A stretch of 31,895 nucleotides of DNA from a virus: IMG/VR virus record IMGVR_UViG_3300034403_000061, positions 1 to 31,895 of that record; one strand, 5' to 3'. Shown here one piece after another: positions 2,499 to 27,538 of the stretch (position 1 is its first letter; each line of letters starts with the position of its first letter). The notes under the pieces are model-generated. The model was not told the DNA's origin. It did no database searches and saw only the letters and a program-made list of their open reading frames with translations. The position numbers and the translations under genes are program-made.

Positions 2499-5093
2499 CT
2501 ATTGTAGGAATGAGGTTTGTTGTTCTTGTTGAATTTTCTCTTGTAATAACTCTGGGTAAGTTAATAAAAGCTGCCTTTTAGCCTCTGCTTTATACCTGCG
2601 CAGTAACCTTTTAATATTCCTAACTTGAATAGGCTCCTCATGACCAATATCATTAAAATACATCCTATCTACATCGTAGTCGTAACGAGGGGATTTCATC
2701 TCATCCCCAATGGCCTGTATTAACGTCTTATTTTTATAGTAAGGGAGTCTTACATTCCCCATTAGCTTGTTGTAGTTCGCATACTGATGTGAACTTAGCT
2801 CTACACCATCGAATGATCTAGTAGGCCCTGAAAATCCATGATTTAGATTAACAAGTTCCCTTAATACCCAATCGTCTGATGTAGGTTTCATAGGTATTCC
2901 ATATTCAAGTCCCTGAGGTACTTCTTCCTTCTTACCTGTCAACCAGTTATAGCGATCAGGTAGGTCATCTTGATGCCAAGGAGACTTACGCTTGAGTTTG
3001 TCTATCAACCCCAAAGCCTCTTTGATATATTTGGTATCAAATTCACCTGTTGTCTGTGTTAATAAGGAAGGTACCCATGAGGCTACATGCTCCTCCATAA
3101 GATTCTTAACAGCCATATCTTTACCAATAACATGATCTGAGAATAGAGTAGCTGCATTAGTCACCCCTCTCAAACTAGACTTATCCCCTATAGTGCCTGT
3201 GATTGATAGAATTGTAGCTTGTACAACATCTCCCATATCATCAGCAGTAAGGGCACCATTCCTAGCTGCATCCATACCATTAGCGATTACCCCAAAGAGC
3301 ATCCCTGTAGGGTCAAACTTCTGGTAACTGACCCACTTCCCATCAATTAGAATTGAGTTGGGTTGGTGTGTCTGTCTCCATATCTGATTGGTCTTAGGGT
3401 CATCGGGCCCACTACCTGTTAGCTTACCTTCCATGTAGTAGTTGTACCCTGCATAGGCCATACCAGTACCTATTGCTTGCCTCCCGAACCACTGACCTCT
3501 TTTTAACGGGTCACCTGAGGTGAAATCATTACGCATTCTCTTACTAATCATTCCTATTAGAGGTGTACGTTGGTAAGCCTTGTTGATTAGATCAGAGGGT
3601 GTTCTGACAAAGGGTAAGAACATCCCTAAGGCAGGATTACTAGCCACCAACTGTTGGGTCTTTTGGACTATACTTCCTTCCATTGCCTGTTTGGTATGAG
3701 TAGCATCCTGAGCAACCAACAGGGCATCTTCATCCCTATGTTTAGGAGTAAAACCATCGACTTCAAAGTGATCTTTCATCTTCTGGTGGATGCCAATTTC
3801 AACATCCCTCCTACTTACACCTCTATCTAAATCTCTTAGTGCCTCTGCGTGGTATTTGGACTTTAAAGAAGCCCAGTAATTTGTCTGCTTTACCACTTCA
3901 TCGGTAGCACCTAAGAATCTAAAGGATAACCGAAAGTATTTACCCATACCATCAACCATCCCTCCCATTACAGAGGATGGGTCTAAGCCCCAGTTCTCTG
4001 CTGTGATCTGAAACGGAGATGAATGGCCTGTTGTTAACTCATGTACCTTATGATCCACATGGCCTAAGTTCCCTAAGTTTCCTTGAGGAAATTCAATCAT
4101 ACTACCTCTATAAGGGTCGATGAATTGACGGTCATGCTTTAGTGATTGCCATCCTGCTGCTAACCCCTGTCTAAACCCTTCACCCATATATCTTATGTGG
4201 TTCCATGCTTGGTCATGGGCTAACTTTACAGCAGGGTCATACGTTAAATGTCCATCTGCAAACTTAAATTGGAAAGGAGGTGATGTACCTACCCATCTCT
4301 CTAGGGGTATGATGATACTCTCTGAGATTCCTGAGATTGTGTTGGTAGCAAATGTAGCAGAGTTAAGAAGTAATGAACCCCTCCATGCCTCTGTGAGGCT
4401 TGCCATGAATTTCTCACCTCCACGGTACCTCATGAACTCTCTTGTGATTTTGGTTTTAGCTGCTAGATCATCAAGACCTTTAATAGAATCAATAAGAGCA
4501 TTAAATGCTTTTATATCCCCACCACCCTCAAATTCCTTTAGTGCTAAGGCTAGTTGATCTGGATTTAACTCAGCGAAATCAGTTAGTTTATTCTTACGGT
4601 GGGCTAATGCTCGTCCGTAGGCTGTTTCTAATCGACTTACTGGGTTAGCCCTTTGTTGCATCTCCTCTGTGAGCTTTAATACTTCAGCTTTAGCTCTATT
4701 ACTGACCACTTTATTAGGGTCTTTAAGAGCCTTGCTATTAACAGCCTTCATTAACTTAATATGAGTAGCCTCTAGCATTACCTCTGAGGCGTATAGGTAT
4801 GATATTGAGTCTTCAACATCAGTTGTATACTTGGATAAGAGAGTATCTACTGAACCTACATCCATACCAGATAACTCAGACCATCTTTGGGCCGCTTCTG
4901 CTTTCTGATGTTTAAACCCGAACCTCTTTAAGTCCCTTGTTTCGTTAAGAAGAGGCTTAGTGAGTTTTGTCATGATATACTCCATGATCTCTCGCTCTTC
5001 TTTAGGGGAAGACCAGTATTTAGTAGATAAGTCTTCGCCCATGGATTTAAGAGTTTCCCGTACTACCCCTTGGGGGCTTACCTTACATGGCAT
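2499..5093 (-). CDS. Large internal virion (DNA ejection) protein, C-terminal gp16-like part
   Basis: An 864-aa protein. The frame stays open to a GTG at 5102, but that GTG directly abuts the AAGGAGG ribosome-binding site. The ATG at 5093 lies nine bases beyond AAGGAGG and overlaps the preceding stop as TAATG, so I take 5093. The sequence is mixed alpha-helical. Around residues 490-515 it has FLPFVRTPSDLINKAYQRTP, a signature I associate with large ejection proteins of marine podoviruses. A short hydrophobic stretch follows (IGTGMAYAGYNYY), and the C-terminus is strongly basic and helical. It lies between the other internal virion genes and the tail fibre, where T7 has gene 16. It probably forms part of the periplasm-spanning DNA ejection tube. 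No enzymatic domain is visible. Confidence 0.75.
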   Translation of the reverse strand: MPCKVSPQGVVRETLKSMGEDLSTKYWSSPKEEREIMEYIMTKLTKPLLNETRDLKRFGFKHQKAEAAQRWSELSGMDVGSVDTLLSKYTTDVEDSISYLYASEVMLEATHIKLMKAVNSKALKDPNKVVSNRAKAEVLKLTEEMQQRANPVSRLETAYGRALAHRKNKLTDFAELNPDQLALALKEFEGGGDIKAFNALIDSIKGLDDLAAKTKITREFMRYRGGEKFMASLTEAWRGSLLLNSATFATNTISGISESIIIPLERWVGTSPPFQFKFADGHLTYDPAVKLAHDQAWNHIRYMGEGFRQGLAAGWQSLKHDRQFIDPYRGSMIEFPQGNLGNLGHVDHKVHELTTGHSSPFQITAENWGLDPSSVMGGMVDGMGKYFRLSFRFLGATDEVVKQTNYWASLKSKYHAEALRDLDRGVSRRDVEIGIHQKMKDHFEVDGFTPKHRDEDALLVAQDATHTKQAMEGSIVQKTQQLVASNPALGMFLPFVRTPSDLINKAYQRTPLIGMISKRMRNDFTSGDPLKRGQWFGRQAIGTGMAYAGYNYYMEGKLTGSGPDDPKTNQIWRQTHQPNSILIDGKWVSYQKFDPTGMLFGVIANGMDAARNGALTADDMGDVVQATILSITGTIGDKSSLRGVTNAATLFSDHVIGKDMAVKNLMEEHVASWVPSLLTQTTGEFDTKYIKEALGLIDKLKRKSPWHQDDLPDRYNWLTGKKEEVPQGLEYGIPMKPTSDDWVLRELVNLNHGFSGPTRSFDGVELSSHQYANYNKLMGNVRLPYYKNKTLIQAIGDEMKSPRYDYDVDRMYFNDIGHEEPIQVRNIKRLLRRYKAEAKRQLLLTYPELLQEKIQQEQQTSFLQ

Positions 5094-6964
5094 TAGAAAC
5101 ACCCTCCTTCTTTATTCATTTTCTTAGCTACGTTGTAGCCTTTGTATTTAGCAAAGACAGCATCCATCTCTTCTGCGGTATACCGTTCCCCTGCTGTGTT
5201 CTTTAAAGGCCCTTTTGATTCCTTGACTCCACTTAGATTCGCAAAGGTCTTCTCAGGCTTTATGATCTTTTCGCCTGTATATTCCCCATGTGATTTAACG
5301 GTATTCAATGAGTCTTCTATATCTTTAGTAGCTGCTGATACATCAACGTCAACCCTCTTAGAAACCTCTCTGATTATGTTGCCATATTCAGCATTTAGTG
5401 CGGTCAGATTAGTATCCTTATTGACATTAAAGATAGCGTGAATAGTGGCATCAAAGTCATCTAATAGACTGTCTCTGAATACCTTTTCATCAGAGGTCTT
5501 TTTTAGTAACTTATCGTTTACTGCTCTGTAAAACTTATCAGGCTGTGAGGCCTCTCTTGATTTGTTAGCACTAACACCTCTAGCAGCATCGTCTTCAGCT
5601 TGTTTAGCTGTACGCTCGGCTAACTGTGTGGTCAATTCTTTCATCTTAACTTTATGTGCTTCAGCAGCCTTACTAACCTTTGCCCTAGCGGCTGTCGTTG
5701 TCCTACCCGCTTTGTTTTTAGGTATAGGTGTTCTTTTGCTATTAGCTTCAGCTATCTGCTCGGTTAATGTTTTGACCTCATCATCTAGAGCCTTTCTGTC
5801 CACCCTATTCATCTTAGGGGTCTTCACAGCACTTTCAGGTAAGACCTCAGGGATGTCTTTAACAACCTTATCAGCTTGAATTACAGACTTAACCACATTC
5901 CTTAAGTCATCTGTACTCATGTTCTTTAGGTAGTCAGAGATACTTACATCGTTTTGTGCTGCCTTAATTACAGTGTTTATCTTTAGTGCTGTAGGCTGAT
6001 CTGTTTTAGTAGTATTGTTTAGATGACTCTCTACGGTTTCTGTAGCTTCTTTTAGTTTTACAGCTTCTGCTACTTTCTCTTCTTCTACCCCTTTCTTGAG
6101 GTCATCTGCATCAGGCACCTTTCCATCATTCCTAGCTTTGAATGCTTTGAACAAAGGTAACAAGGCCATCCCTATGGTTACATCCTCTACACCGTTCTTT
6201 AATCTTCTTTCCCATACAGAATCATCTAGGTCTGAGGCTAAGTAAGAAGCCAAGGAGGCTCCTACCCATTCGTTCTCAACCATCACTTCTGCTAATGTAT
6301 GCTCATAAGGGTCTTGGACTACCACAGAGGCTACAGCGGAATCTATGAAGTCTATTCCTCTCTTCTTTCTCCACTGAGGGTCTTTAGCGTTAAACCTCTT
6401 CTTGTTCCTACTTAACCATGTACTCTCTATGTCATCTAGAGATTTACTGACCTTAGCCTTTGTAGTCTTTTTAGCGGCCTCTTTCTTAGACATACTAAGC
6501 ACACCACCTTTACCAAGGACAAGGTTCTCAGCTATGTTTTTACCTACTTTTAATTTTCCTGCCCCTACTAATCCTGTACCGAACTGGAATATATCTTCAA
6601 CGAATTGACCTACAGCAGTTCTAGGTTTATCAACCATCCCTAGGTTAATGAACCTAGCGTTCTCTGCCTCATTATGTAAGTCCCAATCTTTAGCAGATGA
6701 CATTGTGTCATTCCCAAAGAAGTCTCCAACCCCACCAATTACATCGCCTGCATCCTCTACAAACTTATCCTGTATACCTGCGCCAAATTGAAGTGTTTCA
6801 TCCACAGCATCTGTTATACCGTGTAGAGCCCCTCTTCCAACATCTGCTAAGGTATTAGTCTCTTCGGCTGCCATTGATCGGTAGCCCGCTTTAATACCCG
6901 TCAGGTCAGTTTCTGTCAGAGCAATGAAGTCTTCTTCACTCATGCCTCCATCAAACCCCTCCAT
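5093..6964 (-). CDS. Internal virion / DNA ejection protein, middle part of split gp16
   Basis: About 623 aa. An ATG at 6970 is in frame but directly abuts AAAGGAG; the ATG at 6964 is six bases beyond it and is the more likely start. The gene overlaps the lysozyme gene and ends in a TAATG overlap with the next ejection protein. The N-terminal third contains an Ala/Gly-rich amphipathic segment (DVGRGALHGITDAVDETLQF) and a short hydrophobic stretch near residues 128-140. The middle and end are Lys/Ala/Glu-rich helix, probably coiled coil, with many TEQIAEAN-type heptads. I see no catalytic motif. By position it is an ejectosome component, probably an internal piece of what T7 carries as one gp16 chain. 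The last residues (GGCF) include the only obvious cysteine. Confidence 0.65.
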   Translation of the reverse strand: MEGFDGGMSEEDFIALTETDLTGIKAGYRSMAAEETNTLADVGRGALHGITDAVDETLQFGAGIQDKFVEDAGDVIGGVGDFFGNDTMSSAKDWDLHNEAENARFINLGMVDKPRTAVGQFVEDIFQFGTGLVGAGKLKVGKNIAENLVLGKGGVLSMSKKEAAKKTTKAKVSKSLDDIESTWLSRNKKRFNAKDPQWRKKRGIDFIDSAVASVVVQDPYEHTLAEVMVENEWVGASLASYLASDLDDSVWERRLKNGVEDVTIGMALLPLFKAFKARNDGKVPDADDLKKGVEEEKVAEAVKLKEATETVESHLNNTTKTDQPTALKINTVIKAAQNDVSISDYLKNMSTDDLRNVVKSVIQADKVVKDIPEVLPESAVKTPKMNRVDRKALDDEVKTLTEQIAEANSKRTPIPKNKAGRTTTAARAKVSKAAEAHKVKMKELTTQLAERTAKQAEDDAARGVSANKSREASQPDKFYRAVNDKLLKKTSDEKVFRDSLLDDFDATIHAIFNVNKDTNLTALNAEYGNIIREVSKRVDVDVSAATKDIEDSLNTVKSHGEYTGEKIIKPEKTFANLSGVKESKGPLKNTAGERYTAEEMDAVFAKYKGYNVAKKMNKEGGCF

Positions 6965-7502
6965 ACTCATCTCCTTTATCTCTAACTTTCTTTAGGGCCC
7001 CTACAAAGTCACTGACTCTAACAGGGGTCTGTTTTGCCCATCTACTAGGGCCATCCCCTTTAGAGTTCAAGGCCACTTCAGTAATAGCATCGTCCCACTT
7101 ATGGCAACCCATGCAGTTCCATGCTTTAGGGAACTTCTTTATCCAGTTGGTTCCTAGCTGAAAGTTCACATGCACTAAGGCATCTTCTAGCTCAGGGACA
7201 CCTATTTGAGTTGCCTGTTTCTGGGCTGCTGACAGAGCCCCTTCTACATCCTTTTCAAACCATTCATCTATCTGAACCTGCGGTATATAGGTACCCTCTG
7301 GGTAAACCAGAGACTCCTGTGTATTAAGTAAATGACCTATGCCCCCTGTTAGTTTCTTTAGGCTGTCTAGGTAAGATACATTCATTACACCTTCTCTTAA
7401 CTTAAGGTGTTCTAGCATCTCCCTTGAGGGCTCACTTGCATTAGTGTATGACTTCCTGCAAATGTATTCCATGAAGAGACTTCTGATACCGTTTGACATC
7501 AT
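6951..7502 (-). CDS. GH24 lysozyme (T4 lysozyme family), in the internal virion block
   Basis: A 183-aa muramidase that would cleave the MurNAc-GlcNAc bond of peptidoglycan. The family triad is present with exact T4 spacing: E37 in KLREG, D46 in YLDS and T52 in LTGGIGH (9 and 6 residues apart, as in T4 E11, D20, T26). The following GGIGHLL also fits. The 30 residues before it contain a short hydrophobic stretch but no clear signal-anchor. The ATG overlaps the stop of the gp15-like gene (TAATG) and is preceded by GGAGGA. Its position between internal virion genes suggests an enzyme carried in the virion that opens the cell wall during ejection, replacing the transglycosylase domain at the N-terminus of T7 gp16. 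A role in final lysis cannot be excluded. Confidence 0.9.
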   Translation of the reverse strand: MMSNGIRSLFMEYICRKSYTNASEPSREMLEHLKLREGVMNVSYLDSLKKLTGGIGHLLNTQESLVYPEGTYIPQVQIDEWFEKDVEGALSAAQKQATQIGVPELEDALVHVNFQLGTNWIKKFPKAWNCMGCHKWDDAITEVALNSKGDGPSRWAKQTPVRVSDFVGALKKVRDKGDEYGGV

Positions 7503-9463
7503 TAATTTCCTCCAGTGGAGAATACATTACCCTCTTTATGTTTTAGTTTAGCTAAGGCATTAGGGTCTTCAATAACACCTTCCTCTGACCAACCTTTAGG
7601 GTCAGCGTTGAACTTAGCCATTTGAGAGAGAACTAATGCCACAGGAAGCTCTACCTCTCTAGCGAACTTGTATATAAGGGTCTTTTCTAACTTTGCCTGT
7701 ACAAGTGCTTTAGCGTCTAGGCTATTCCAAGTACCTTTTCTTATGTAGTCAGCCCGTAATGCAAGGGCCCCCTTGTAGTCTTCCCCATTGAGATATTGTG
7801 AAACACTTATGGTATCTCTTAGTTTAGTGCCTAATATCTTAGACCTGTCTGCTACATCTTGTGGTGACATATCATTTTCATACTTCTTGTTAGTATACTC
7901 TTGAAGCATCGATGCAAGTGTCTCCGCATAATCACTGTTTATTTTATTAACCGCAGCCACAGCCTCTGATATCTCAAGACCTTTTGGTATTAAAGAAATC
8001 TGTTCATTATATTTCGGCTTCATTATGTTCCATATAGCCTGTCGTGGATAACGGTCGTGGGAAGCAGGGTTAGTAGGGTCAGTACCTGCGGCATAACCAA
8101 AGACTCTTGGCTTAAGGAAGGATTTCTCTGTGGACTTTATGAAGTCTAGGTCAGTGCCTTGTAGCCCCATTCTAATAGTCGCAGTTCTATCTTGAATCTC
8201 CTTTAGTTGAGCCCCACTAAAGCCCCCTAGTTCAATAGCTTTTTCGGTTATCTCAGAATCAAGTGTTGTAGCAATTTCTAACCCTTGTATAAATGAATTT
8301 ACATCAGTGTCATCCCTTTTGATGAAGGCTTGATTTAGAAGCAATGTGGCATGGGTTCTTTTGGAAGTATCCTCTGAATACTTCCCTATATCACGGGCCC
8401 ACGTTATCTGCGCTGACCCTTCATCAGTCTTCCAGAACTGCTCGATAGTGCCTCCATTCTTGACATACTCATCTTTAGCTGATTCATGCCCTTTAATCAT
8501 CTCTTTGGTAGCTCTTATATCCACTTGCTCTCTAGCTGCTGAAGCTCTGGCAAACTCTCTGTCAGCCGCAACCTCTAGCTTTGCTATCAACTCCTTGCCT
8601 TTACCAGTACTACCATAAGATACCCCCTTAGCCAGTTTCACATTGGATAAGACTTCAAGGTACTTAGCTTCCTTATGGGCTAGTGTGCCATCTTCTGACC
8701 CTGCGGCATCAAGTATCGCTCCTGATACAGCAGACTTAATAATCTCCAATCCTCGGCCTGTTCTCATACCTATGTCAGGGTAATGCTCTGTTAGTAACTT
8801 ATCAATAACCTCTGGGGCCTTATCACCCTCTAGGGCTCCAACCACTAAGGATGAAAATTTAGTATCATAGACAACCCGTATAGACTCTTCTTTAGCCTTC
8901 ATATTCTGGGCTAAAGTGGATATGTACATAGGCTCAATTCCCTTACCAAATATCGCTTGTGCCTCTGTACTCATGTTGTCTAACCCAAACTCTTTGACAT
9001 GTGAAGAGTAGTGGTTTCTATTCCACTCCGTTAGGTTTAGGTTAGGATTAGATTGGATCGCCAACTGATAATCTACTGCATACTGTTGTTGGTAAGACAT
9101 AACAGAGTCTTTAGCGATTAATGTTTCCAGTTTCCTACGAAAGAAAGGAGACTGAGAAGGGGCTAATCGGTTATTCTTAACAGCCTTTTTGTATTCCTTT
9201 TGTTCTTCTGGACTAGAGAGTACATAGGTATCGAATGCACTTCTCTCTTCTATCTTTTGGTAGTTCTCTAATGTGTTACTCCCTACAGACTCAAGTAACT
9301 TTCCTATACTAGAAATCTTCTTAGCTTGTACTTTTGAGTTATTAGCTAGGGAGTAGTCTGCTCTAGGGGCTCCTTGATATGTATCAATAGCATTTGCGAC
9401 AGCATTGGGCCTCTTATCTAAGCTCCCAATGCCCCCTAATATTGCTTCTGTTATCCCACTCAT
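7502..9463 (-). CDS. Internal virion protein, gp15-like
   Basis: A 653-aa, mostly helical, soluble protein with no visible signal or membrane segment. The assignment rests on position (after the gp14-like gene, before the lysozyme and large ejection proteins), size near T7 gp15 (747 aa), and an N-terminus that lists short Gln/Ser/Ala-rich helices as in gp15 relatives. Recognisable sequence identity with T7 is weak by eye. It starts in an ATGA overlap with the gp14-like gene, so the two are probably translationally coupled. In T7, gp15 forms the periplasmic part of the DNA ejection conduit; that role is inferred here. Confidence 0.7.
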   Translation of the reverse strand: MSGITEAILGGIGSLDKRPNAVANAIDTYQGAPRADYSLANNSKVQAKKISSIGKLLESVGSNTLENYQKIEERSAFDTYVLSSPEEQKEYKKAVKNNRLAPSQSPFFRRKLETLIAKDSVMSYQQQYAVDYQLAIQSNPNLNLTEWNRNHYSSHVKEFGLDNMSTEAQAIFGKGIEPMYISTLAQNMKAKEESIRVVYDTKFSSLVVGALEGDKAPEVIDKLLTEHYPDIGMRTGRGLEIIKSAVSGAILDAAGSEDGTLAHKEAKYLEVLSNVKLAKGVSYGSTGKGKELIAKLEVAADREFARASAAREQVDIRATKEMIKGHESAKDEYVKNGGTIEQFWKTDEGSAQITWARDIGKYSEDTSKRTHATLLLNQAFIKRDDTDVNSFIQGLEIATTLDSEITEKAIELGGFSGAQLKEIQDRTATIRMGLQGTDLDFIKSTEKSFLKPRVFGYAAGTDPTNPASHDRYPRQAIWNIMKPKYNEQISLIPKGLEISEAVAAVNKINSDYAETLASMLQEYTNKKYENDMSPQDVADRSKILGTKLRDTISVSQYLNGEDYKGALALRADYIRKGTWNSLDAKALVQAKLEKTLIYKFAREVELPVALVLSQMAKFNADPKGWSEEGVIEDPNALAKLKHKEGNVFSTGGN

Positions 9464-10266
9464 GCTCTAAGGGCTCCTGACGCTTTCAAGGTATATAATT
9501 TATTGCCTGTATCAGCAAAGGCCATCATACTATCCACAGCTAATGTGTCTATTGGTGGTGCCCCTGATCTGCTCTGCCATTGTCTATTTACTTTCTTACG
9601 GTAACTAGCAAGGCTCTTTGCTTGTATGTCCTGAGCGTTCGCCTGTAGATTCCATATGTTAGAGGATACATTCCTCTGTTCTTGTTTGTATATGGATGTC
9701 CCTAAATGATCGAATACAGCACTAGCTACTCCTGTAGAACTTCCCATATGAGCTATAGCTTTACCTTGGGCTTGTGCAGCCTTAAGGGTGTTCGCAAAGA
9801 TATTCCCTGCAAAAGTTCTTTCTGCTTGGGCTCTCTGCCTCATTAAGACTCTTTGAGCTTCATCGTTAGACTGCCTAGCCATAAGGGTATTGGCCTGTTG
9901 GGCCTGTAGGTCTGCCATATACTTCTGTTCGGCTGCCCTGTTCTGAGCAAGGCTGCCGGTTACTTGGGATAATCCTCCAACTAGAGTAGTACCTGCCATC
10001 ATAAGGCCCATATTGGAGACTCCTAATCCTCCTAAGCCTCCTGCTGTAAAACCTAATCCTCCGACACCCCCTAGGGCAGGGGCACCTGCTATAGCTATAG
10101 GGGCCGCAGGGGCGAAAGCTAATGCTGCTCCCCCTGTGACTCCTCCTAAGACCCCTCCGATCAAGGCACCCTTTAGGATGTCAGTCCCTGAGCCCCCATT
10201 CATAGCAGACATTCCTGCCCCTAATCCTGCCCCTATTGCTATTCCTATACTTATTGGTTCACACAT
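9460..10266 (-). CDS. Internal virion protein, gp14-like
   Basis: 268 aa. The N-terminus starts MCEPISIGIAIGAG and continues through about 100 residues of Gly/Ala-rich hydrophobic sequence with several possible membrane-active segments. A helical, Gln/Ala-rich region follows (AAEQKYMADLQAQQAN) and then a basic C-terminal half. T7 gp14 also starts Met-Cys with a hydrophobic stretch followed by Gln/Ala-rich helix, and forms the outer-membrane pore of the ejectosome. Length (T7: 196 aa) and position after a gp13-like gene agree. The ATG overlaps the gp13-like stop codon (ATGTGTGA) and the gene ends in an ATGA overlap with the next. Confidence 0.78.
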   Translation of the reverse strand: MCEPISIGIAIGAGLGAGMSAMNGGSGTDILKGALIGGVLGGVTGGAALAFAPAAPIAIAGAPALGGVGGLGFTAGGLGGLGVSNMGLMMAGTTLVGGLSQVTGSLAQNRAAEQKYMADLQAQQANTLMARQSNDEAQRVLMRQRAQAERTFAGNIFANTLKAAQAQGKAIAHMGSSTGVASAVFDHLGTSIYKQEQRNVSSNIWNLQANAQDIQAKSLASYRKKVNRQWQSRSGAPPIDTLAVDSMMAFADTGNKLYTLKASGALRA

Positions 10267-10729
10267 TGTTTTTAATCCTCACAAATTCGTAGAATGGTTG
10301 GTCACTCATTTCAACCTCCCTGATAAAAGTAAACCCTAGGTACTTAAGCCACTTAAGGGATGCTGTGTTATGTGTATGAACATAATTAACCAACATAGGG
10401 TATTTTGATTGTTTCCTTGCTATCCATTCTTTAGACTGCCTTAGGAATGGAACGACTATAGCAGGGTGGGCCATTAGGTCTGAACCTAACAACCATGGTG
10501 AACCTACTAGATTATCTAGCTTGGTTATCCCAAACATCCCTACTACTTCATCTTTATAAATCATTGAATAACAAACATCACTAACACTATACGAATTAAT
10601 GAGAGCTTGATAAGGGGTATGACCATGGCTTGCCATCACTTCCTTGCAGTCTGCCTCCCTCATGTTCTTAGCTAGTCTCTTGCAGTCTTTCTTTGTGGCT
10701 TTCCTTTTATAGCCCCTTATCATATCCAT
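10259..10729 (-). CDS. gp13-like protein with GNAT acetyltransferase fold
   Basis: 156 aa. The middle and end resemble a GNAT N-acetyltransferase: a strand-rich core (CYSMIYKDEVVGMFGIT), a helix, then NTASLKWLKYLGFTFIREVE, which is the typical 'N-x-x-x-x-x-x-x-x-x-G-F' ending of the fold. The same gene position in T7 is gp13, which is needed for virion assembly, and homologues in other T7-like phages are often annotated as acetyltransferases. Whether it acetylates anything is unknown; the acetyl-CoA loop (Q/R-x-x-G-x-G/A) is not obvious, so the fold may be used structurally. The gene begins seven bases after the tail tube B gene and overlaps the gp14-like gene. Confidence 0.75.
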   Translation of the reverse strand: MDMIRGYKRKATKKDCKRLAKNMREADCKEVMASHGHTPYQALINSYSVSDVCYSMIYKDEVVGMFGITKLDNLVGSPWLLGSDLMAHPAIVVPFLRQSKEWIARKQSKYPMLVNYVHTHNTASLKWLKYLGFTFIREVEMSDQPFYEFVRIKNNV

Positions 10730-17931: not shown

Positions 17932-18891
17932 TTACCATCCGAAACATCCTTTCATACCCTCTGCTGAATAATCCGTTACTGTACCCTCGAAGAAGTTCTT
18001 GAAACTATCCCCTGCGGTTACCCAATCTACCCACGGCAGTGGGTTCTCCTTGATACCGTAGTTACCTTTAAGGCCTAGCTGTATAAGTCTTCGATCCGTA
18101 AGATACCTGATGTATTCCTTTACCTCGCTTGCTTTAAGACCCTCTAGGTCACCGCTTTCAAACACTAAATCAATGACCTCATCCTCTAACCTCACCGCTT
18201 CCCTTGCAGTATCGTAGATGTATTCTTTGAACGCATCCTTAACCATCCTTGGTTTTTCCTTGGTGAACTCCTTGAACAGCTTGGTCATTCCATCTACATG
18301 TTTAGTCTCATCACGGATAGACCATTCGACTACCTCACACATCCCTTTCATTTTTCCAAATCTCTGGAAGTTGAGCAGCATCACAAAGGCACTAAATAAA
18401 CCTACCCCCTCATTGATACAGGCCTGTGCTAAGGCATAAGCTACATCCTCATCCCCTGCGTAAGGGGCCCCACCTGCTGCCATGAAGTCAATCTTATCTG
18501 CCATAGGCTTATATTTTAAGAAAGCACTATATTCTGATTCATCTAACCCAAGTGTATCGTTAAGAAGGGCATAGGCACGTTGATGCGTACCCTCCCGATT
18601 CGCAAACGATAGCAGCATATTTCGTATCTCATTGTTCCTGAAGTAAGGGATGAATAGGTCAGCGTAGTTTTGTGCAACCTGTACGTCCGACTGAGTAAAA
18701 AGACGTAGTATCTGGATGATGTGATGCTTTTCTTCAGGGGTGATTTCGTTTCCCTTCCACTGATTAACATCCTCTTGCAGCTTGACTTCCCATGTACCCC
18801 AATGAATCTTCTCATGGTCTTCTGCTAACTCCATTGCCCAAGGGTACTGGAAGGGTTTGTATGTTACTGACGGTCGTGTTAGCCCTCGCAT
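17932..18891 (-). CDS. nrdB: Ribonucleotide reductase class I, beta subunit (radical-generating)
   Basis: A 319-aa protein that makes the tyrosyl radical used by NrdA to reduce ribonucleotides. The frame opens at GTG 18900, but GAGGGG is eight bases before ATG 18891, which I take as start. All metal ligands are present: D69, E100 and H103 (REGTH), E161 (INEGVG), E195 and H198 (RDETKH). Y107, four residues after H103, is the expected radical tyrosine; D69 to E100 spacing (31) equals E. coli D84 to E115. The last residues (MKGCFGW) replace the usual NrdB tail that docks to NrdA, with an aromatic still near the end. It overlaps nrdA by 13 bases, so subunit synthesis is probably coupled. Confidence 0.95.
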   Translation of the reverse strand: MRGLTRPSVTYKPFQYPWAMELAEDHEKIHWGTWEVKLQEDVNQWKGNEITPEEKHHIIQILRLFTQSDVQVAQNYADLFIPYFRNNEIRNMLLSFANREGTHQRAYALLNDTLGLDESEYSAFLKYKPMADKIDFMAAGGAPYAGDEDVAYALAQACINEGVGLFSAFVMLLNFQRFGKMKGMCEVVEWSIRDETKHVDGMTKLFKEFTKEKPRMVKDAFKEYIYDTAREAVRLEDEVIDLVFESGDLEGLKASEVKEYIRYLTDRRLIQLGLKGNYGIKENPLPWVDWVTAGDSFKNFFEGTVTDYSAEGMKGCFGW

Positions 18892-20651
18892 GATAAACAC
18901 CCCTCTTCTACATTCTCTTCAACGAAATCCTTTAGGGCTACTCTCTCAACCTTCTTTCCTACTTGTTCTGCTGTGTGCCCTGATGATGTCCTCAAATAAT
19001 ATAATCCTTTTAGTTTCTTCTTCCATGAGTCTAGATGAACGCTATTAACGTAAGAACGATCAACACCTGATGGAAAGAATAAGTTAACCGACTGACCTTG
19101 GCAGATATACGGTTGCCTGTCTGCCGCATGTTGTACTACCCAGTGTTGGTCAATCTCAAATGCAGTTTTAAATACACTCTTTGTCCATGGGTCAAAGCAC
19201 TCTAACTGTTGCACCGATCCCTCATGGTGTATGACGCTCTCCCATTGCTTACCCACCCAATCTGAATCATGCCCAAAGACTTCAGCTACTTCCCATAGTT
19301 TCTTGTCTAGGTATTTGTTCTTGATTAGATGTGTACCCACTCTGGTTCGATGAGCAAAGGCATTAGACTTCCAAGGCTCGATGCTTGGGGAGGTACTAAG
19401 TATCATGCTTGAGTTGGCGTTAGGTGCTATAGCTAGAAGATGGGAGTTACGCATCTCTGTGCAAGGCCCGTCTGTGTAGGTTCCTTTTTCATGTGCCAAG
19501 TTCACCGTAGCCTTAGTAGCCCAACTCTTTATCTCCATAAAGATTTTTCTATTCAACCCACTGGCTTGTGCAGATTCAAAAGGTACCTCTTTCTGTTGTA
19601 GTAGGGCATGAAAACCCATAGCACCTAAGCCTAATGATCTCTCGGCTATCGCAGACCTAACTGCTTTATGTAACTGTGGAGGAGCGTGAGTGATGAACTC
19701 GGTCAGTACATTGTCCAACATCCTTATCAGGTCACCTATGAATCTCTGGTTTCCTGTCCACTCTTCGTACTTCTCTAGGTTCACACTCGATAAACAACAT
19801 ACTGCTGTACGTTCTGGTGAGGTTGGTAGGTGTATCTCATTACACAAGTTACTACCGTGTATCTTCAGGCCTTTATCCTTAAGAGTCTTAGGCAACTGAC
19901 GGTTAGCCTCATCAATGTAGTTGATGTAAGGTTCTCCAGTTCTGAATCTAACCTCTAGTATCTTCTCCCACAGTTTTCTTGCTGATACTAAATCTCTGAT
20001 TTCACCATCATGGGGATCAATCAAATCCCATAGCTCATCCTTTGCTACCTTCTCCATGAACTCGTCAGTCACATTGACTGCGTTGTTTAGGTTAAAGCAT
20101 TTACGATTAGCATCGCCCCCTGTGGGTAGTCTTATATCTAAGAACTCCATAATGTCTGGGTGACTGACATCTAGGTATGCTGCATAACTTCCCTTTCTAG
20201 TCTTACCCTGTTTGTATGCAGTCATGGCACTATCCGCAACTTTCATAAAGGGGATAGGGGATGGGGCCTTATCAGATACCGCTCTCACATCTGACCAATG
20301 ACCTCCTACTCCTCCTCCTTTAACTGACAACCATGCTAACTCCTCCTGATGTTCAATCAACCCCTCAAGGGTATCAGGGACGTATGATAGGAAGCAGCTT
20401 ATAGGTAGACCTCTAGGGGCTTCACCTTCCTTGGGTGCATTAGATAGTATAGGGCTTGAGAACATGAACCATCCTCTACTGGCATAGTCGTAGATTCGTT
20501 GTGCTAACTCACCGTCACCACCTGAGTACGCTGTGGCTGCCCTAGCAAATGCGTCTTGTATATCCTCACCTTCAAGGGTGTAGTAGTCTGAGAGTAGAGC
20601 TTGTGATTGCTCTGAGAGTACAGAGTTTCTTGACTTATCAATGTCAATCAT
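18879..20651 (-). CDS. nrdA: Ribonucleotide reductase class I, alpha subunit (catalytic)
   Basis: A 590-aa catalytic subunit that converts NDPs to dNDPs. Seen in order: SSPILSNAP (65-73), C86 (ISCFLS, equivalent to E. coli C225), N268-C270-E272 (SNLCNEIHLP, radical and catalytic site), C285/C286 (C462 equivalent), PNANSSMILSTSPSIEP (410-426, phosphate loop), tyrosine pair Y551-Y552 for radical transfer, and the C-terminal CLSC (585-588) for re-reduction. The protein begins directly at the catalytic region: the roughly 100-residue ATP-cone found in cellular NrdA is absent, so dATP feedback inhibition through that site should be missing. The ATGA overlap with the upstream MazG-like gene and overlap with nrdB place it in one operon. 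Confidence 0.95.
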   Translation of the reverse strand: MIDIDKSRNSVLSEQSQALLSDYYTLEGEDIQDAFARAATAYSGGDGELAQRIYDYASRGWFMFSSPILSNAPKEGEAPRGLPISCFLSYVPDTLEGLIEHQEELAWLSVKGGGVGGHWSDVRAVSDKAPSPIPFMKVADSAMTAYKQGKTRKGSYAAYLDVSHPDIMEFLDIRLPTGGDANRKCFNLNNAVNVTDEFMEKVAKDELWDLIDPHDGEIRDLVSARKLWEKILEVRFRTGEPYINYIDEANRQLPKTLKDKGLKIHGSNLCNEIHLPTSPERTAVCCLSSVNLEKYEEWTGNQRFIGDLIRMLDNVLTEFITHAPPQLHKAVRSAIAERSLGLGAMGFHALLQQKEVPFESAQASGLNRKIFMEIKSWATKATVNLAHEKGTYTDGPCTEMRNSHLLAIAPNANSSMILSTSPSIEPWKSNAFAHRTRVGTHLIKNKYLDKKLWEVAEVFGHDSDWVGKQWESVIHHEGSVQQLECFDPWTKSVFKTAFEIDQHWVVQHAADRQPYICQGQSVNLFFPSGVDRSYVNSVHLDSWKKKLKGLYYLRTSSGHTAEQVGKKVERVALKDFVEENVEEGCLSCEG

Positions 20652-21037
20652 CGGTAGTCACCTGACCCCTCTATAACTCCTCTATCTTTGCGTGAGGTTA
20701 ACTTATCAATATTAGCATTGGCAACTTCTGCCAGATCAAGCTGAAAAGTTGTAGCAATCTGAGAGATAAACCAGAGTACATCCCCCAGTTCGTGCTTAAT
20801 ATCTTGGATTGGATAGCGGTAGTAATTCTGTGTTCCTCCTGTGCCTCTGCTGTAGTTACCCTTCCTTAGTTGTTTAGCTATGATGCTTGTTAATTCTCCT
20901 ACTTCGCCTGCTATCCCTGCGGCTAGGTATTCTAACGCCACTTCTTTGTCATAAATGGCTGTAGTCTTCGCTCGTCTTTGGTAGTTCTTAAATGTTTCTG
21001 ATATGTGTGTGCTTGGATATGTTGGGTGATTCTTCAT
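20648..21037 (-). CDS. MazG-like nucleotide pyrophosphohydrolase
   Basis: A 129-aa all-helical protein. The family's acidic metal-binding residues are visible: E45 and E48 in GEVGEL and E83 and D86 in HELGDVLW, followed by NIDKLTSRKDRG (109-120), the usual end of MazG-type domains. These enzymes hydrolyse NTPs or dNTPs to monophosphates; in phages they may supply dNMPs or lower alarmone levels. It is coupled to the upstream gp1.7-like gene and to nrdA through ATGA overlaps, which points to a nucleotide-pool role. A short Tyr-rich insert (NYSRGTGGTQNYYRY) between the two halves is longer than I would expect in minimal MazG. Confidence 0.85.
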   Translation of the reverse strand: MKNHPTYPSTHISETFKNYQRRAKTTAIYDKEVALEYLAAGIAGEVGELTSIIAKQLRKGNYSRGTGGTQNYYRYPIQDIKHELGDVLWFISQIATTFQLDLAEVANANIDKLTSRKDRGVIEGSGDYR

Positions 21038-21294
21038 TTGATTCCCTTGATTATCGCATTCTCTTTGGCTAACTGTGCGTAGTGTATTATCTTATCTAAG
21101 TCTGATATACATTGGCCTTTGTCGTACATGCGTGTAGCATACTTAACAATATTAAATTGGAATGGGTCTAGTTCATTTTCCACTCCGTAATGTAGTGGTT
21201 GTATTTTCTTAGATACATAATGATTACCTCCTACCTGCGTGGAGCTTGCTTTATCCCACTCTTCTACTGTTACATCATTTAATCTCTTATACAT
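21034..21294 (-). CDS. DUF3310 / T7 gp1.7-like protein (possible nucleotide kinase)
   Basis: 86 aa. The motifs VGGNHYVSKKIQPLHY (22-37), FNIVKYATRM (47-56) and DLDKIIHYAQL (65-75) are the conserved blocks of the DUF3310 family. The C-terminal part of T7 gp1.7 has the same pattern; T7 gp1.7 has been reported to phosphorylate dTMP and dGMP. This protein lacks the N-terminal part of T7 gp1.7, so kinase activity is only a possibility. It lies between the exonuclease and MazG-like genes, overlapping both, within the dNTP operon, which fits a nucleotide role. Confidence 0.8.
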   Translation of the reverse strand: MYKRLNDVTVEEWDKASSTQVGGNHYVSKKIQPLHYGVENELDPFQFNIVKYATRMYDKGQCISDLDKIIHYAQLAKENAIIKGIK

Positions 21295-22042
21295 TAGCAG
21301 GCTCCCATAGCTTCACTTCGTTCTTATAGTCACAGTAGTCACCTTCTCTAAGTATCCTCGCTAGTCTTGTCTGAGTTAGAGCCTCATCAACGGTATGGCC
21401 TGCTTTCAGGTAAGCACTCCTTACTCTCTTCCACATATCCTCCTCAGTCTTGGCTCCCTCAAGTATTCGTAACGCTTTAACAGGGCCTACACCTTTAATA
21501 CCTTTATAGTTATCTACTGTATCCCCTGTTAATGCTTGCTTAAACCAATTCCTGTTAGCGGCTTCTTCGGATATTTTAGTAGGCTTGCTATCTGTATTAG
21601 TCATATGCCAACAGTTCGGTATGGTTGCCATGTCTTTATCTGCTGAATATATAACAACCTCCTTATCTCTAGTGGCATAGATTCCCATGACATCATCGGC
21701 CTCTATGTTTGTCCAGATTAGTGACGAGTATTTATCACCTAGGTACGCTACTACTTCTCTTATACACATAGGTCTTCTTTTACCTTCACGGTTCTTTTTG
21801 TACTCAGGGTAAATACCTTTTCTGAAGTTACTGGTGGAACTAAATGCCACCTTGACTTTATCTATATCAAAGTAGTTATTAGCTACAGCTTTAACCCTTT
21901 CTATATGGGTAGCTGCTTTATGTTTAGCTTCCCACTCGTCTGTATGTAAAGTCCATATACCGTCCTCCCATTTGGTAGCTTTCTCTGAGGCTGCACATGC
22001 TTGATATACAACAATATCCCCATCAATAATTAAATCAGTCAT
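21287..22042 (-). CDS. 5'-3' exonuclease (T7 gp6-like, FEN/PIN family)
   Basis: 251 aa. Acidic metal-site motifs of the family appear in order: D7-G8-D9, FRKGIYPEYKKNREGKR (about 74-90, basic arch), EADDVMG (about 114-120) and SADKDMA (about 133-139). TGDTVDNYKGIKGVGPVKAL is the helix-three-turn-helix that grips duplex DNA. In T7, gp6 removes RNA primers and degrades host DNA to recycle nucleotides; the same is expected here. The ATG overlaps the thyX stop with AGGAG upstream, and the end overlaps the gp1.7-like gene. Confidence 0.93.
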   Translation of the reverse strand: MTDLIIDGDIVVYQACAASEKATKWEDGIWTLHTDEWEAKHKAATHIERVKAVANNYFDIDKVKVAFSSTSNFRKGIYPEYKKNREGKRRPMCIREVVAYLGDKYSSLIWTNIEADDVMGIYATRDKEVVIYSADKDMATIPNCWHMTNTDSKPTKISEEAANRNWFKQALTGDTVDNYKGIKGVGPVKALRILEGAKTEEDMWKRVRSAYLKAGHTVDEALTQTRLARILREGDYCDYKNEVKLWEPANV

Positions 22043-22691
22043 CCTTCTCTCCTGTTAATGCTTCCCATGCTTCAGGAAAGTAGACTTTAATCTGGTCTGA
22101 TATTTGTTGAGCAATCTCTCTGGTTTCCTCTTGGGTGGCCTTATCTAATCTTAGGTTGCATATCCTAGAGAACGCTAGGACTGACCCTGTCCAGTACCAT
22201 TCTGTGTTGGTTGCAGTAGGCAGTACCGATCTGGCTTGTTCCTTAGATACACCAAGGTTTAGTAAGGTGTTATAGGCTATGCCACTGGCTTTGACCGATG
22301 ACTCATATACAGAGTTAGCCATTAGTCCCTTCATGCCTAATAGGTAATTCTTACCCGATCCTTGCTTAATATCTTTACTGTCCTTTCTGTATCTCTTTGG
22401 TTCCCAGTAACCCTGAGATGCCTCAACGTATCTATATGACACTTCGTTCCAACACAACCCAACCTGATGTTTGGCTAGTTGTCTCGCTACGAATATTGGT
22501 GCCTTGATTCTGAACTGAGCCTGTATGTGCCCAAAGGGTGACCAATGACCATGCTTGGCTAAGTATTTAATTAGTCTATTGTTCTGATCTAACGAGTAGT
22601 TATCTGCGGTTTCAGAGTAGCTGACTCTAGCTGCATTAGCTACGGTGTCATCTGTTCCCATCGTATTTAGTAGTTCTACTTTCATCATCAT
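22035..22691 (-). CDS. thyX: Flavin-dependent thymidylate synthase
   Basis: A 218-aa protein that methylates dUMP to dTMP with FAD, NADPH and methylene-tetrahydrofolate. Family blocks: HWSPFGHIQAQFRIKAPIFV (49-68), the signature region ARQLAKHQVGLCWNEVSYRY (69-88), and the later ARSVLPTATNTEW. The classical RHR-x7-S signature appears as K74-H75-Q76 followed by S85, so both arginines are replaced and the gap is eight. NEVSYRY is otherwise normal. Three ATG codons occur in a row; AAGGATAA lies about ten bases before the first. It is the first gene after a candidate phage promoter and heads the dNTP operon. Confidence 0.95.
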   Translation of the reverse strand: MMMKVELLNTMGTDDTVANAARVSYSETADNYSLDQNNRLIKYLAKHGHWSPFGHIQAQFRIKAPIFVARQLAKHQVGLCWNEVSYRYVEASQGYWEPKRYRKDSKDIKQGSGKNYLLGMKGLMANSVYESSVKASGIAYNTLLNLGVSKEQARSVLPTATNTEWYWTGSVLAFSRICNLRLDKATQEETREIAQQISDQIKVYFPEAWEALTGEKDD

Positions 22692-25171: not shown

Positions 25172-26835
25172 GCTGTCTCTCCTTCTTTGGTTTCATTTAG
25201 TTCCAGATTTGAAAAGGGGTCTGTTTCCCCTATAGGTTCATTGTCTTCCTCGGACATGGCTACCTCTGCCATCCTTCCTGTTGTAGTATCGTAATTCAGG
25301 ATAGAGCAGATGCCTGTTTGCCCTGTCCAACGGTTCTTAAGTATCCTTAAGAAGGTGGTGTTAGGATGCTCAACCGATTGTTGATCCCTCTCGCACCCTA
25401 TGACCATATCAGATAGCTGCCCTATGGCCCCTGAGCCTCGCAACTGAGCCAAGGATGTTTGGGCCCCATCCTCATGCCCTTTGTCTCCTGAAGGTCTTCT
25501 TAAGTGGCTTACCAATATCAGGCCTACATTAAGTTCTTCACATAAAGACCTTAGGTTAGTCATGAGGTTGTCGATAATCCTGCGTTCATCTCCTCCCTCC
25601 ATACCTGATACACAAATGGATATATGATCTAGTGCTATGTACCCACATGAGCCTGCTTTAACCAAGTATCTAATCTTAGAAAGTAAGTTGTCTGTTTCTG
25701 TACTGCCCCAATGATCGTATAGGTATACTCTCCCTGTACCTAAGGTGTTATCAAAGGCTAACTTCAATTCCTTATCGGTGACATGCTCTGTCCCTAGATG
25801 TAAGGGTCTGTTAATAGCCAATGACATCAATCCTAATGCTGTTCTCTTAACATTCTCCTCTAAAGCTATATACCCTATAGACTCCCCTTGATTTAACAGG
25901 TGATGTGCTACCTCTCGTACAACCTGTGACTTACCTATACCTGACCCTGCGGTGATGGTGACAATCTCTCCCCTTCTGATCCCTTGGGTCATCTTATTAA
26001 GACCTTCAAAGGGGTATGACTTACTCTCTGTCTTATCTTCAGTACTAACTAAATCCCAGAGGTCTTGTCCATTAATAATCCCATCGGGTTGGTAAGGTTT
26101 AGCATCCCATATGCAGTTAGATAGCTCTTTGTGCTTACCTGCCTTAAGCATCTCATTAGCATCTTTTAGGGGCAGATGAACAACTCTTGCTTTATTAGGT
26201 GGTAGTACTCCTGCACATTCTATGGCAGCCTTCTGACCTGCCTCATCCATATCCATGCAGAAGATTACATGCTCAAACTTACATAACCATTCCATGTTAT
26301 TTATGATGGCCCTCTTGGCACCTTGGGCCCCTGTAGGTACACCAACCACAGGGTACTTATTACCAAAGACTTGGCTGACAGTTAGTGTGTCTACCTCGCC
26401 TTCGCAAACAATTACCTGCTTACCCCCATCTCTCCAGAGCCACTGACCGTACAGTTCAATGTTCTTTGTATCCCCTATGAATAGGAAATCCTTATTGGCA
26501 AACCTTATCTTCTGGGCTACTGTCCTACCTTCCTTTATGTAGTTGGCTACTTGGCATCCCTTGCCTTTAAATCTTCCTTGCTGATACTTAAATTTCTTTA
26601 CTGTGTCTGTTTGTATACCCCTCTTGGTAAGAGGTGTAGTAACCAGATCATCTGTTATTAAATCCATGTGGCTCCTTTGCTTGGGTTGTTCGTTAATTTC
26701 TGTCAACTTTGCGGAACGATAGCCGCAACTAAAACACCATCCATGTCCATCATCGTAGATACTATATGCATCTGATGAAGGACAACTGGGACATTGTGTT
26801 TGCGTTACTAGATTTGATTCAATGTATCCCACCAT
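25162..26835 (-). CDS. Primase-helicase (T7 gp4-like)
   Basis: 557 aa, near T7 gp4A (566). N-terminal zinc ribbon C15-C18-C34-C37 for primase site recognition; TOPRIM primase core with E145 (CEGE) and D195/D197 (MDMDEAG); hexameric helicase domain with Walker A GSGIGKS (297-303), Walker B-type LDH (402-404), SH at 443-444, and KNRWTGQTG (500-508) near the arginine finger. The C-terminus is acidic and ends in Trp, like the acidic tail with terminal aromatic that T7 gp4 uses to bind polymerase. The ATG overlaps the amidase-like gene by 28 bases and has no strong Shine-Dalgarno, so coupling is likely. No internal start for a gp4B-like short form was sought in detail. Confidence 0.95.
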   Translation of the reverse strand: MVGYIESNLVTQTQCPSCPSSDAYSIYDDGHGWCFSCGYRSAKLTEINEQPKQRSHMDLITDDLVTTPLTKRGIQTDTVKKFKYQQGRFKGKGCQVANYIKEGRTVAQKIRFANKDFLFIGDTKNIELYGQWLWRDGGKQVIVCEGEVDTLTVSQVFGNKYPVVGVPTGAQGAKRAIINNMEWLCKFEHVIFCMDMDEAGQKAAIECAGVLPPNKARVVHLPLKDANEMLKAGKHKELSNCIWDAKPYQPDGIINGQDLWDLVSTEDKTESKSYPFEGLNKMTQGIRRGEIVTITAGSGIGKSQVVREVAHHLLNQGESIGYIALEENVKRTALGLMSLAINRPLHLGTEHVTDKELKLAFDNTLGTGRVYLYDHWGSTETDNLLSKIRYLVKAGSCGYIALDHISICVSGMEGGDERRIIDNLMTNLRSLCEELNVGLILVSHLRRPSGDKGHEDGAQTSLAQLRGSGAIGQLSDMVIGCERDQQSVEHPNTTFLRILKNRWTGQTGICSILNYDTTTGRMAEVAMSEEDNEPIGETDPFSNLELNETKEGETAWN

Positions 26836-27173
26836 GATTCTGTATCAAACTCCTGTTCTTCTTGACTGTTTATTACTTCTATACTTTGGTACTGCAACTT
26901 GAGTACCATAATCAGGGATTGCAGGGCCCCTAACTGAATAGGGCTAGGGGGTGATCCACATACTCCTATTCCTATAGAGCAATCGTTAAACCCTCTTGTA
27001 TGGGCCCCTGCCATCTCTAACTCCCTACCTTTTTGTACTACTCCTTCTTCGGTTATAACAAAATGGTAACCAATCTTTAGTAACCCTTTCTTGCGGTGAT
27101 GCTTATCTATATTCACCGAATCACAGGGGCATATATCCTTTACCTCCCTTACTAGAATGTAATCCTTAATCAC
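26808..27173 (-). CDS. T7 gp3.5 (amidase/RNA polymerase inhibitor)-like protein lacking zinc ligands
   Basis: 121 aa from GTG 27173, which forms a GTGA overlap with the endonuclease stop and lies eight bases beyond AAGGAG; GTG 27182 is also open but abuts that site. Family features: IGYHFVITEEG (34-44), GRELEMAGAHTRGFNDCSIGI (49-69), matching T7 lysozyme Y46-H47 and the GSHAKGYN block. Of the T7 zinc ligands, H17 falls at R9, and the C-terminal block with H122, K128 and C130 is replaced by a short acidic stretch (INSQEEQEFDTESWW). Amidase activity is therefore unlikely. T7 gp3.5 also binds and inhibits T7 RNA polymerase; retention of that role is my inference. A C15-x-C17 pair is a lineage feature. 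Confidence 0.82.
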   Translation of the reverse strand: MIKDYILVREVKDICPCDSVNIDKHHRKKGLLKIGYHFVITEEGVVQKGRELEMAGAHTRGFNDCSIGIGVCGSPPSPIQLGALQSLIMVLKLQYQSIEVINSQEEQEFDTESWWDTLNQI

Positions 27174-27538
27174 TTCTCCCACTCCTTGGGTAAACGCATC
27201 CTTGCGTATTGAAATCCGTTCTTCTCACACCACTTAGCATTACTGACCTTGCTTGCCTGACCCTTTGAATCTGGGTTCATAAACACAAACCTAATGTCTA
27301 GGTCAGGATGCTGTTTCTTTATTAACTTGTGTTTGGTACGGTCTGCTGAATAGAAGTATCCTTTAGTCTCTATAATGATTCCGTTGTCAAGTATGAAGTC
27401 AGGCTTGTAATATCTTTGTTGCTGATATGTGATCCTTGTATCTTCATACTCGTATGGAATACCCCTCTCTATTAAGTCCTCTGCAAACTCATACTCAAAC
27501 CCTGATCTAAAAGTCTGATTCAGTCTGTTCGTTTTCAC
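27170..27538 (-). CDS. Endonuclease I, Holliday-junction resolvase (T7 gp3-like)
   Basis: About 122 aa. Active-site residues match T7 gp3 with exact spacing: E15 (FRSGFE, T7 E20), D47 (KPDFIL, T7 D55), E57 and K59 (IIETKG, T7 E65/K67). LIKKQHPDLDIRFVF and CEKNGFQYA-like blocks also fit. The frame is open to ATG 27613, which would overlap SSB by 107 bases with a poorly spaced ribosome-binding site. GTG 27538 gives the same N-terminal length as T7, overlaps SSB by 32 bases and has ACGAGA upstream, so I prefer it. If the longer form is made it would add 25 mostly basic residues. It cuts branched DNA and helps degrade host DNA. Confidence 0.92.
   Translation of the reverse strand: MKTNRLNQTFRSGFEYEFAEDLIERGIPYEYEDTRITYQQQRYYKPDFILDNGIIIETKGYFYSADRTKHKLIKKQHPDLDIRFVFMNPDSKGQASKVSNAKWCEKNGFQYARMRLPKEWEK

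Follow-up and report, generated by a model that had tools for sequence, protein, structure and literature searches.

The window, by which we mean the whole analysed stretch of 31,895 nt, is a linear 31.9-kb virus fragment of T7-like content (RNA polymerase, DNA polymerase, portal, capsid, gp11–gp15 and fibre), with all of its T7-like genes encoded on the minus strand. The genes under study make up the ejection-protein cassette of this marine T7-like phage, in the order gp13–gp14–gp15–lysozyme–gp16N–gp16C–fibre. The gp13 homologue (156 aa, positions 10,259–10,729) matched phrog_308, an internal virion protein family, at E = 1.6e-36, and the gp14 homologue (268 aa, 9460–10,266) was assigned from its position and a match to PF24072 (T7_gp14) below the curated cut-off (E = 6.6e-5). 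The gp15 homologue, the ejection-tunnel core (653 aa, 7502–9463), lies between gp14 and gp16 and matched a profile built from 21 marine gp15 proteins over residues 14–429 (E = 6.9e-19, 62 bits; best of 300 shuffles, 8.4); a Pfam scan revealed no lysozyme domain within it. A stand-alone lysozyme gene (6951–7502), the gene for the N-terminal part of gp16 (5093–6964), that for its C-terminal part (2499–5093) and the fibre gene (572–2485) follow, all on the minus strand. Between the structural and the replication genes, putative ribonucleotide-reductase-like, MazG-like and ThyX-like genes were read off the ORF translations at 17,932–20,651 and 20,648–22,691 (minus strand).

The three minus-strand ORFs described in an earlier, sequence-only reading were recovered at 183, 623 and 864 aa, taking as start the ATG best spaced from a Shine-Dalgarno site, as were the overlaps between neighbours, which amount to 14 nt for the lysozyme and 623-aa genes and 1 nt for the 623-aa and 864-aa genes. 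Both downstream starts have strong Shine-Dalgarno sites, read from the sequence on the minus strand: AAAGGAG (6971–6977) stands 6 nt before the ATG at 6964 of the 623-aa gene, and AAGGAGG (5103–5109) stands 9 nt before the ATG at 5093, where the 864-aa gene begins, and falls within the 3'-terminal stretch of the 623-aa gene. The stop codon of the 623-aa gene and the start codon of the 864-aa gene share the motif TAATG, and the same motif joins the end of gp15 to the beginning of the lysozyme gene. An independent contig, L005, has the same gp15, lysozyme and 623-aa start boundaries as the window and keeps the AAAGGAG motif; its amino acid identity to the window is 95% for the lysozyme and 91% for gp15. 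Comparison of the two gave dN/dS values of 0.29 in gp15 and 0.125 in the lysozyme; over the start of the 623-aa gene the value was 0.21. Given the shared boundaries and the low dN/dS, these are genes under purifying selection, and chance ORFs or a sequencing frameshift were ruled out for gp15, the lysozyme and the 623-aa gene. The 623-aa/864-aa junction lies beyond the end of L005, and the split there is seen in the window alone, together with its Shine-Dalgarno and TAATG signals. When viral contigs were searched with the 623-aa, the 864-aa or the gp15 protein alone, the close relatives recovered were L005 only, or none.

The 183-aa product matched phrog_7 at E = 1.4e-11 and PF00959 at E = 2.3e-4 with 21.9 bits, 0.4 bit short of the curated cut-off of 22.3. 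In an alignment with T4 lysozyme, the match extending over residues 29–170, E37, D46 and T52 fell on E11, D20 and T26 of the T4 enzyme, and the catalytic triad is intact. The motif VNFQLGTNW marks the GH24 branch to which the window lysozyme belongs. A tree of 46 GH24 domains placed it in a 31-member set from marine contigs that excludes phiKMV gp36, LUZ24 and the contig L020 (support 95/87); within this set it sits on a long end branch without a close partner, and no fork joins it to the contig L006 alone. Most of its close relatives are free-standing genes of about 165 aa, in phages that show no recognisable T7-type genes; a few form domains within large proteins matching virion families. 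ORFs of about 2,170–2,375 aa with an N-terminal GH24 lysozyme were observed in L024 (9992–16,783), L025, L029 (9953–16,813) and L030; the C-terminus of the one in L024 matches virion structural protein families.

On profile evidence, gp16 is encoded in the window as two genes, with a break at about 30–40% of its length. The 623-aa protein aligned with positions 36–462 of the 1134 positions of an intact gp16 profile (E = 1.4e-42, 141 bits), on which the best of 500 shuffles of this protein reached 3.6 bits, and the 864-aa protein aligned with positions 337–1117 of the same profile at 593 bits. The 42 sequences behind the profile were intact marine gp16 proteins taken from viral contigs, none of them from the window; a smaller profile, from nine marine gp16 proteins, also placed the 623-aa protein in the N-terminal half. 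A single-sequence search of phages with the 623-aa protein returned no match. The 864-aa protein corresponds to the C-terminal part of phrog_6651 (positions 854–1350 of 1375, E = 6.8e-38), a family of internal virion proteins, and matches gp16 of HTVC011P, CRP-227, ProddE and others. Since one of the two window proteins aligns with the N-terminal and the other with the C-terminal part of intact gp16, the window gp16 is split in two and not in three. The sequence-only reading had distributed gp16 function over three genes; the split itself stood, and the number of parts did not, the 42-sequence profile giving two parts only and the lysozyme being no gp16 fragment.

Among the 80 gp16 relatives fetched, gp16 is a single gene in every copy uncut by a contig end, except L083, where an apparent break was found (2–2795). 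In addition, the gp16 homologue of phage MEP301 (L041, 4778–8365) is annotated as separate genes of 464 and 586 aa. Both breaks are at other places than that of the window. Homologues of 1,507–1,951 aa, apparently with internal insertions, were observed in L107 (1035–6890), L122 (2156–7519), L120 and L123. Structure prediction gave an all-helical model of low confidence for the 623-aa protein (pLDDT 53), too weak for a fold search; for the 864-aa protein, modelled at medium confidence (pLDDT 71), Foldseek returned no PDB match at E ≤ 0.001. With T7 gp16 given as a single sequence, hhalign of the window gp16 family against it yielded a probability below 1%. The link to T7 gp16 itself would therefore be one of synteny, as neither the profile comparison nor Foldseek gave a match; by relative length only, the break lies near the boundary between the T7 N-terminal part and gp16-C (residue 411 of 1,318).

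A Pfam search for an SLT or other wall-enzyme domain found none in the window gp15, the 623-aa and 864-aa proteins or the sampled marine gp16 proteins. In the T7 gp16 control of the same search, SLT was found at residues 15–127 (E = 1.7e-31), confirming the earlier description of T7 gp16 as a chain of 1,318 aa with this domain at its N-terminus. The expectation that the wall enzyme of the window is of another family than that of T7 (GH24, not SLT) and on a separate chain was likewise upheld. Because the sampled marine gp16 proteins have no transglycosylase domain, the lysozyme is no stand-in for a missing gp16 piece, and its origin as a lost gp16 N-terminus was ruled out.

None of the 80 gp16 relatives carries a GH24 gene between gp15 and gp16. 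Among the genomes examined, a free lysozyme between gp15 and a two-gene gp16 occurs only here, with L005 sharing the gp15, lysozyme and 623-aa start. HTVC119P (L036) and L054, two of the gp16 relatives, carry a GH24 gene further downstream than gp16, close to where the late region ends. Fused forms were found in two contigs: L020 has a 920-aa gp15-slot protein with a C-terminal lysozyme 43% identical to that of the window, with gp14 on one side and the beginning of the next large gene on the other, and the corresponding protein of L006 ends in a 45% identical lysozyme and is followed by a 1,285-aa gp16-like protein and the terminase genes. L206 and L006 are 93% identical in gp16 and 70% identical in the gp15 segment, yet the gp15-slot protein of L206 (841–4644) ends in a different PF00959 domain than that of L006 (3–1010); L207, 48% identical in the gp15 segment, has yet another C-terminus. 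Since nearly identical gp16 proteins accompany different lysozymes in L206 and L006, the gp15/gp16 boundary looks like a swap site for wall-cutting enzymes.

Other variation in this part of the cassette was observed in relatives. An extra gene of 332–416 aa lies between gp14 and gp15 in L071 (5620–6861), L072, L074, L075 and L079, and the L071 copy has a LysM peptidoglycan-binding domain at its end (PF01476, E = 2e-6). The gp15-slot proteins of L050, L057, L058 and L066–L069 reach 1,038–1,199 aa, about 400 aa more than in relatives; the three scanned against Pfam (L050, L057 and L066) gave no match. In the Pfam scan of the enlarged gp15 proteins of relatives no wall enzyme was found, the only domain being the LysM in L071.

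Taken together, these data suggest that the lysozyme is probably a virion enzyme that opens the peptidoglycan during ejection and is delivered as a separate chain. We favour this role because the gene lies inside the ejection cassette, its start overlapping the end of gp15 and its end the start of gp16N, because L020 and L006 fuse related lysozymes to the gp15-slot protein, and because L206 and L006 carry different wall enzymes at the same place. It is further favoured because the phiKMV, SP6 and K1E/K1-5 enzymes of this slot are virion lysins (PMC5380687, PMC8954989), because the window gp15 and gp16 parts hold no other recognisable wall enzyme in a search that detected the T7 control, and because HTVC119P and L054 have their GH24 gene downstream of gp16 instead. 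Counted against it were a degenerate amidase in the window, the mostly stand-alone relatives of about 165 aa, the absence of a GH24 gene from this slot in the 80 gp16 relatives and a link to T7 gp16 that comes from synteny.

In the mechanism proposed, the lysozyme would be made along with the other core proteins, be packaged in the head, be held non-covalently through contacts with gp15 or gp16N, and exit via the tail with gp14, gp15 and gp16. It would then cut the bonds between N-acetylmuramic acid and N-acetylglucosamine, allowing the gp15/gp16N tunnel to cross the wall, and gp16C, re-joined non-covalently with gp16N, would act at the inner membrane and in the cytoplasm. As a free chain, the lysozyme would do the job of the N-terminal transglycosylase of T7 gp16 and of the gp15-fused lysozyme of phiKMV and SP6. 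The wider picture, which we put forward tentatively and at somewhat less than even chances, is that of a T7-like ejection machine made from four separately translated proteins instead of two, namely gp15, a head-packaged lysozyme, a periplasmic gp16N and a cytoplasmic gp16C. If this is true, the proteins can assemble in order during ejection with the wall enzyme as a free chain and with the two parts of gp16 not covalently joined. The parts are all known and are rearranged; this is no new kind of machine.

The main alternative, though an unlikely one, is that the GH24 enzyme is a host-lysis endolysin that lies in the structural operon by chance, gp16 being split and the entry enzyme absent or unrecognised, as in HTVC011P-type relatives. 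One argument for it comes from the gp3.5-like amidase of the window (124 aa, 26,808–27,182, minus strand; phrog_822, E = 4.2e-19). In an alignment with T7 gp3.5, whose zinc ligands are His17, His122 and Cys130, and three marine homologues, the window protein has an arginine at the position of H17 and lacks H122 and C130. The zinc-ligand residues are kept in CRP-227 and P12026; gp3.5 of HTVC119P is reduced like that of the window. The window protein may keep only an RNA-polymerase-regulating role, and with the zinc ligands gone the phage may need another endolysin; HTVC119P does have a separate GH24 gene. Gene placement points the same way: the nearest lysozymes, in L125 and L166, are stand-alone and lie upstream of the terminase large subunit, and that of LUZ24 lies between the terminase subunits, which fits lysis. 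Moreover, marine gp16 relatives manage without a recognisable wall enzyme in gp15 or gp16. The sequence-only reading had named, as evidence against it, homologues that serve host lysis beside a holin, and relatives that answer to this in part were found, several being stand-alone lysozymes that adjoin terminase genes and are annotated as endolysin, lysozyme or baseplate hub. Against a lysis role stand the gp15-slot proteins of L006 and L020, to which related lysozymes are fused, and the GH24 genes downstream of gp16 in two gp16 relatives. Furthermore, no holin-like small ORF adjoins the lysozyme or was found elsewhere in the window, which ends short of the fibre-to-terminase stretch, the usual lysis region.

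The lysozyme could also have arisen as the detached C-terminal domain of a phiKMV gp36-like protein. The shared slot and the fused forms in L020 and L006 agree with such an origin, which is nevertheless rather improbable, as the 31-member tree set leaves out both phiKMV gp36 and L020, the window lysozyme has a long end branch, and capture from the common pool of phage lysozymes is as likely a source. Quite improbable is a dual use of the enzyme, with a small number of copies entering the virion for ejection and the rest accumulating in the cytoplasm for lysis; the free chain, the TAATG coupling to gp15 and the degenerate amidase agree with it, but a holin would still be required. Finally, an assembly or sequencing error that broke a single gp16 gene at the 623-aa/864-aa junction is highly improbable: the junction is covered by the window only and one indel could join the frames, but a complete AAGGAGG lies 9 nt before the ATG there, the two genes overlap in a TAATG, about 100 C-terminal residues of the 623-aa protein have no match in intact gp16, the profile alignments of the two parts overlap by about 125 positions, and gp16 is apparently broken in MEP301 and L083 too.

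A virion lysozyme on its own chain would matter for the study of ejection. A single T7 chain serves both as the wall-cutting enzyme and as a piece of the channel, which makes these steps hard to separate experimentally; the natural breaks seen here would allow each step to be removed or tagged alone and would reveal which contacts replace the covalent links. The gp15/gp16 boundary is at the same time singled out as an exchange site for wall-cutting enzymes between phages. For specialists, this natural separation of functions and the signs of module exchange at the boundary have the greatest value.

Among known systems, P22 gp4 is a neck protein with lysozyme activity and thus a small, separate virion protein of a short-tailed phage (PMC5380687); it is likened to the window lysozyme by description only, being a head-tail connector outside the ejection cassette. 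Methylophilales phage MEP301 resembles the window in having gp16 apparently in separate genes and a short gene between gp15 and gp16, but its break lies elsewhere and the short gene (161 aa) is no lysozyme, the absence of a GH24 match having ruled it out as the same enzyme. Direct homologues of the 623-aa and 864-aa pair are the phrog_6651 gp16 proteins of HTVC011P, HTVC025P, CRP-227 and P-SSP7; unlike in the window, gp16 of phrog_6651 phages is a single chain of about 1,140–1,370 aa, and no GH24 gene precedes it.

In T7, gp14 forms the outer-membrane pore, gp15 and gp16-N the periplasmic tunnel and gp16-C the inner-membrane and cytoplasmic part, with the wall enzyme opening the path (PMC8954989). 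Like the window pair, T7 gp16 is a large ejection protein with N- and C-terminal parts between gp15 and the fibre, but it is one chain with SLT, whereas the window has two chains and no SLT. The gp36 proteins of phiKMV and SP6 reside inside the head and have lysozyme activity; K1E/K1-5 gp35 is a gp15-like protein bearing the activity that T7 has on gp16 (PMC5380687, PMC8954989). The association of these enzymes with the virion is known from published work. phiKMV gp36 belongs to a different GH24 branch than the window lysozyme. In phiKMV gp36, SP6 gp36 and K1E/K1-5 gp35, the lysozyme follows the gp15 core and precedes gp16, as in the window, and phiKMV gp16, like the window gp16 parts, has no recognisable SLT domain. 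In phiKMV, however, the lysozyme forms the C-terminal end of the gp15-slot protein, whereas in the window and L005 it is a separate ORF, encoding a chain of 183 aa in the window.
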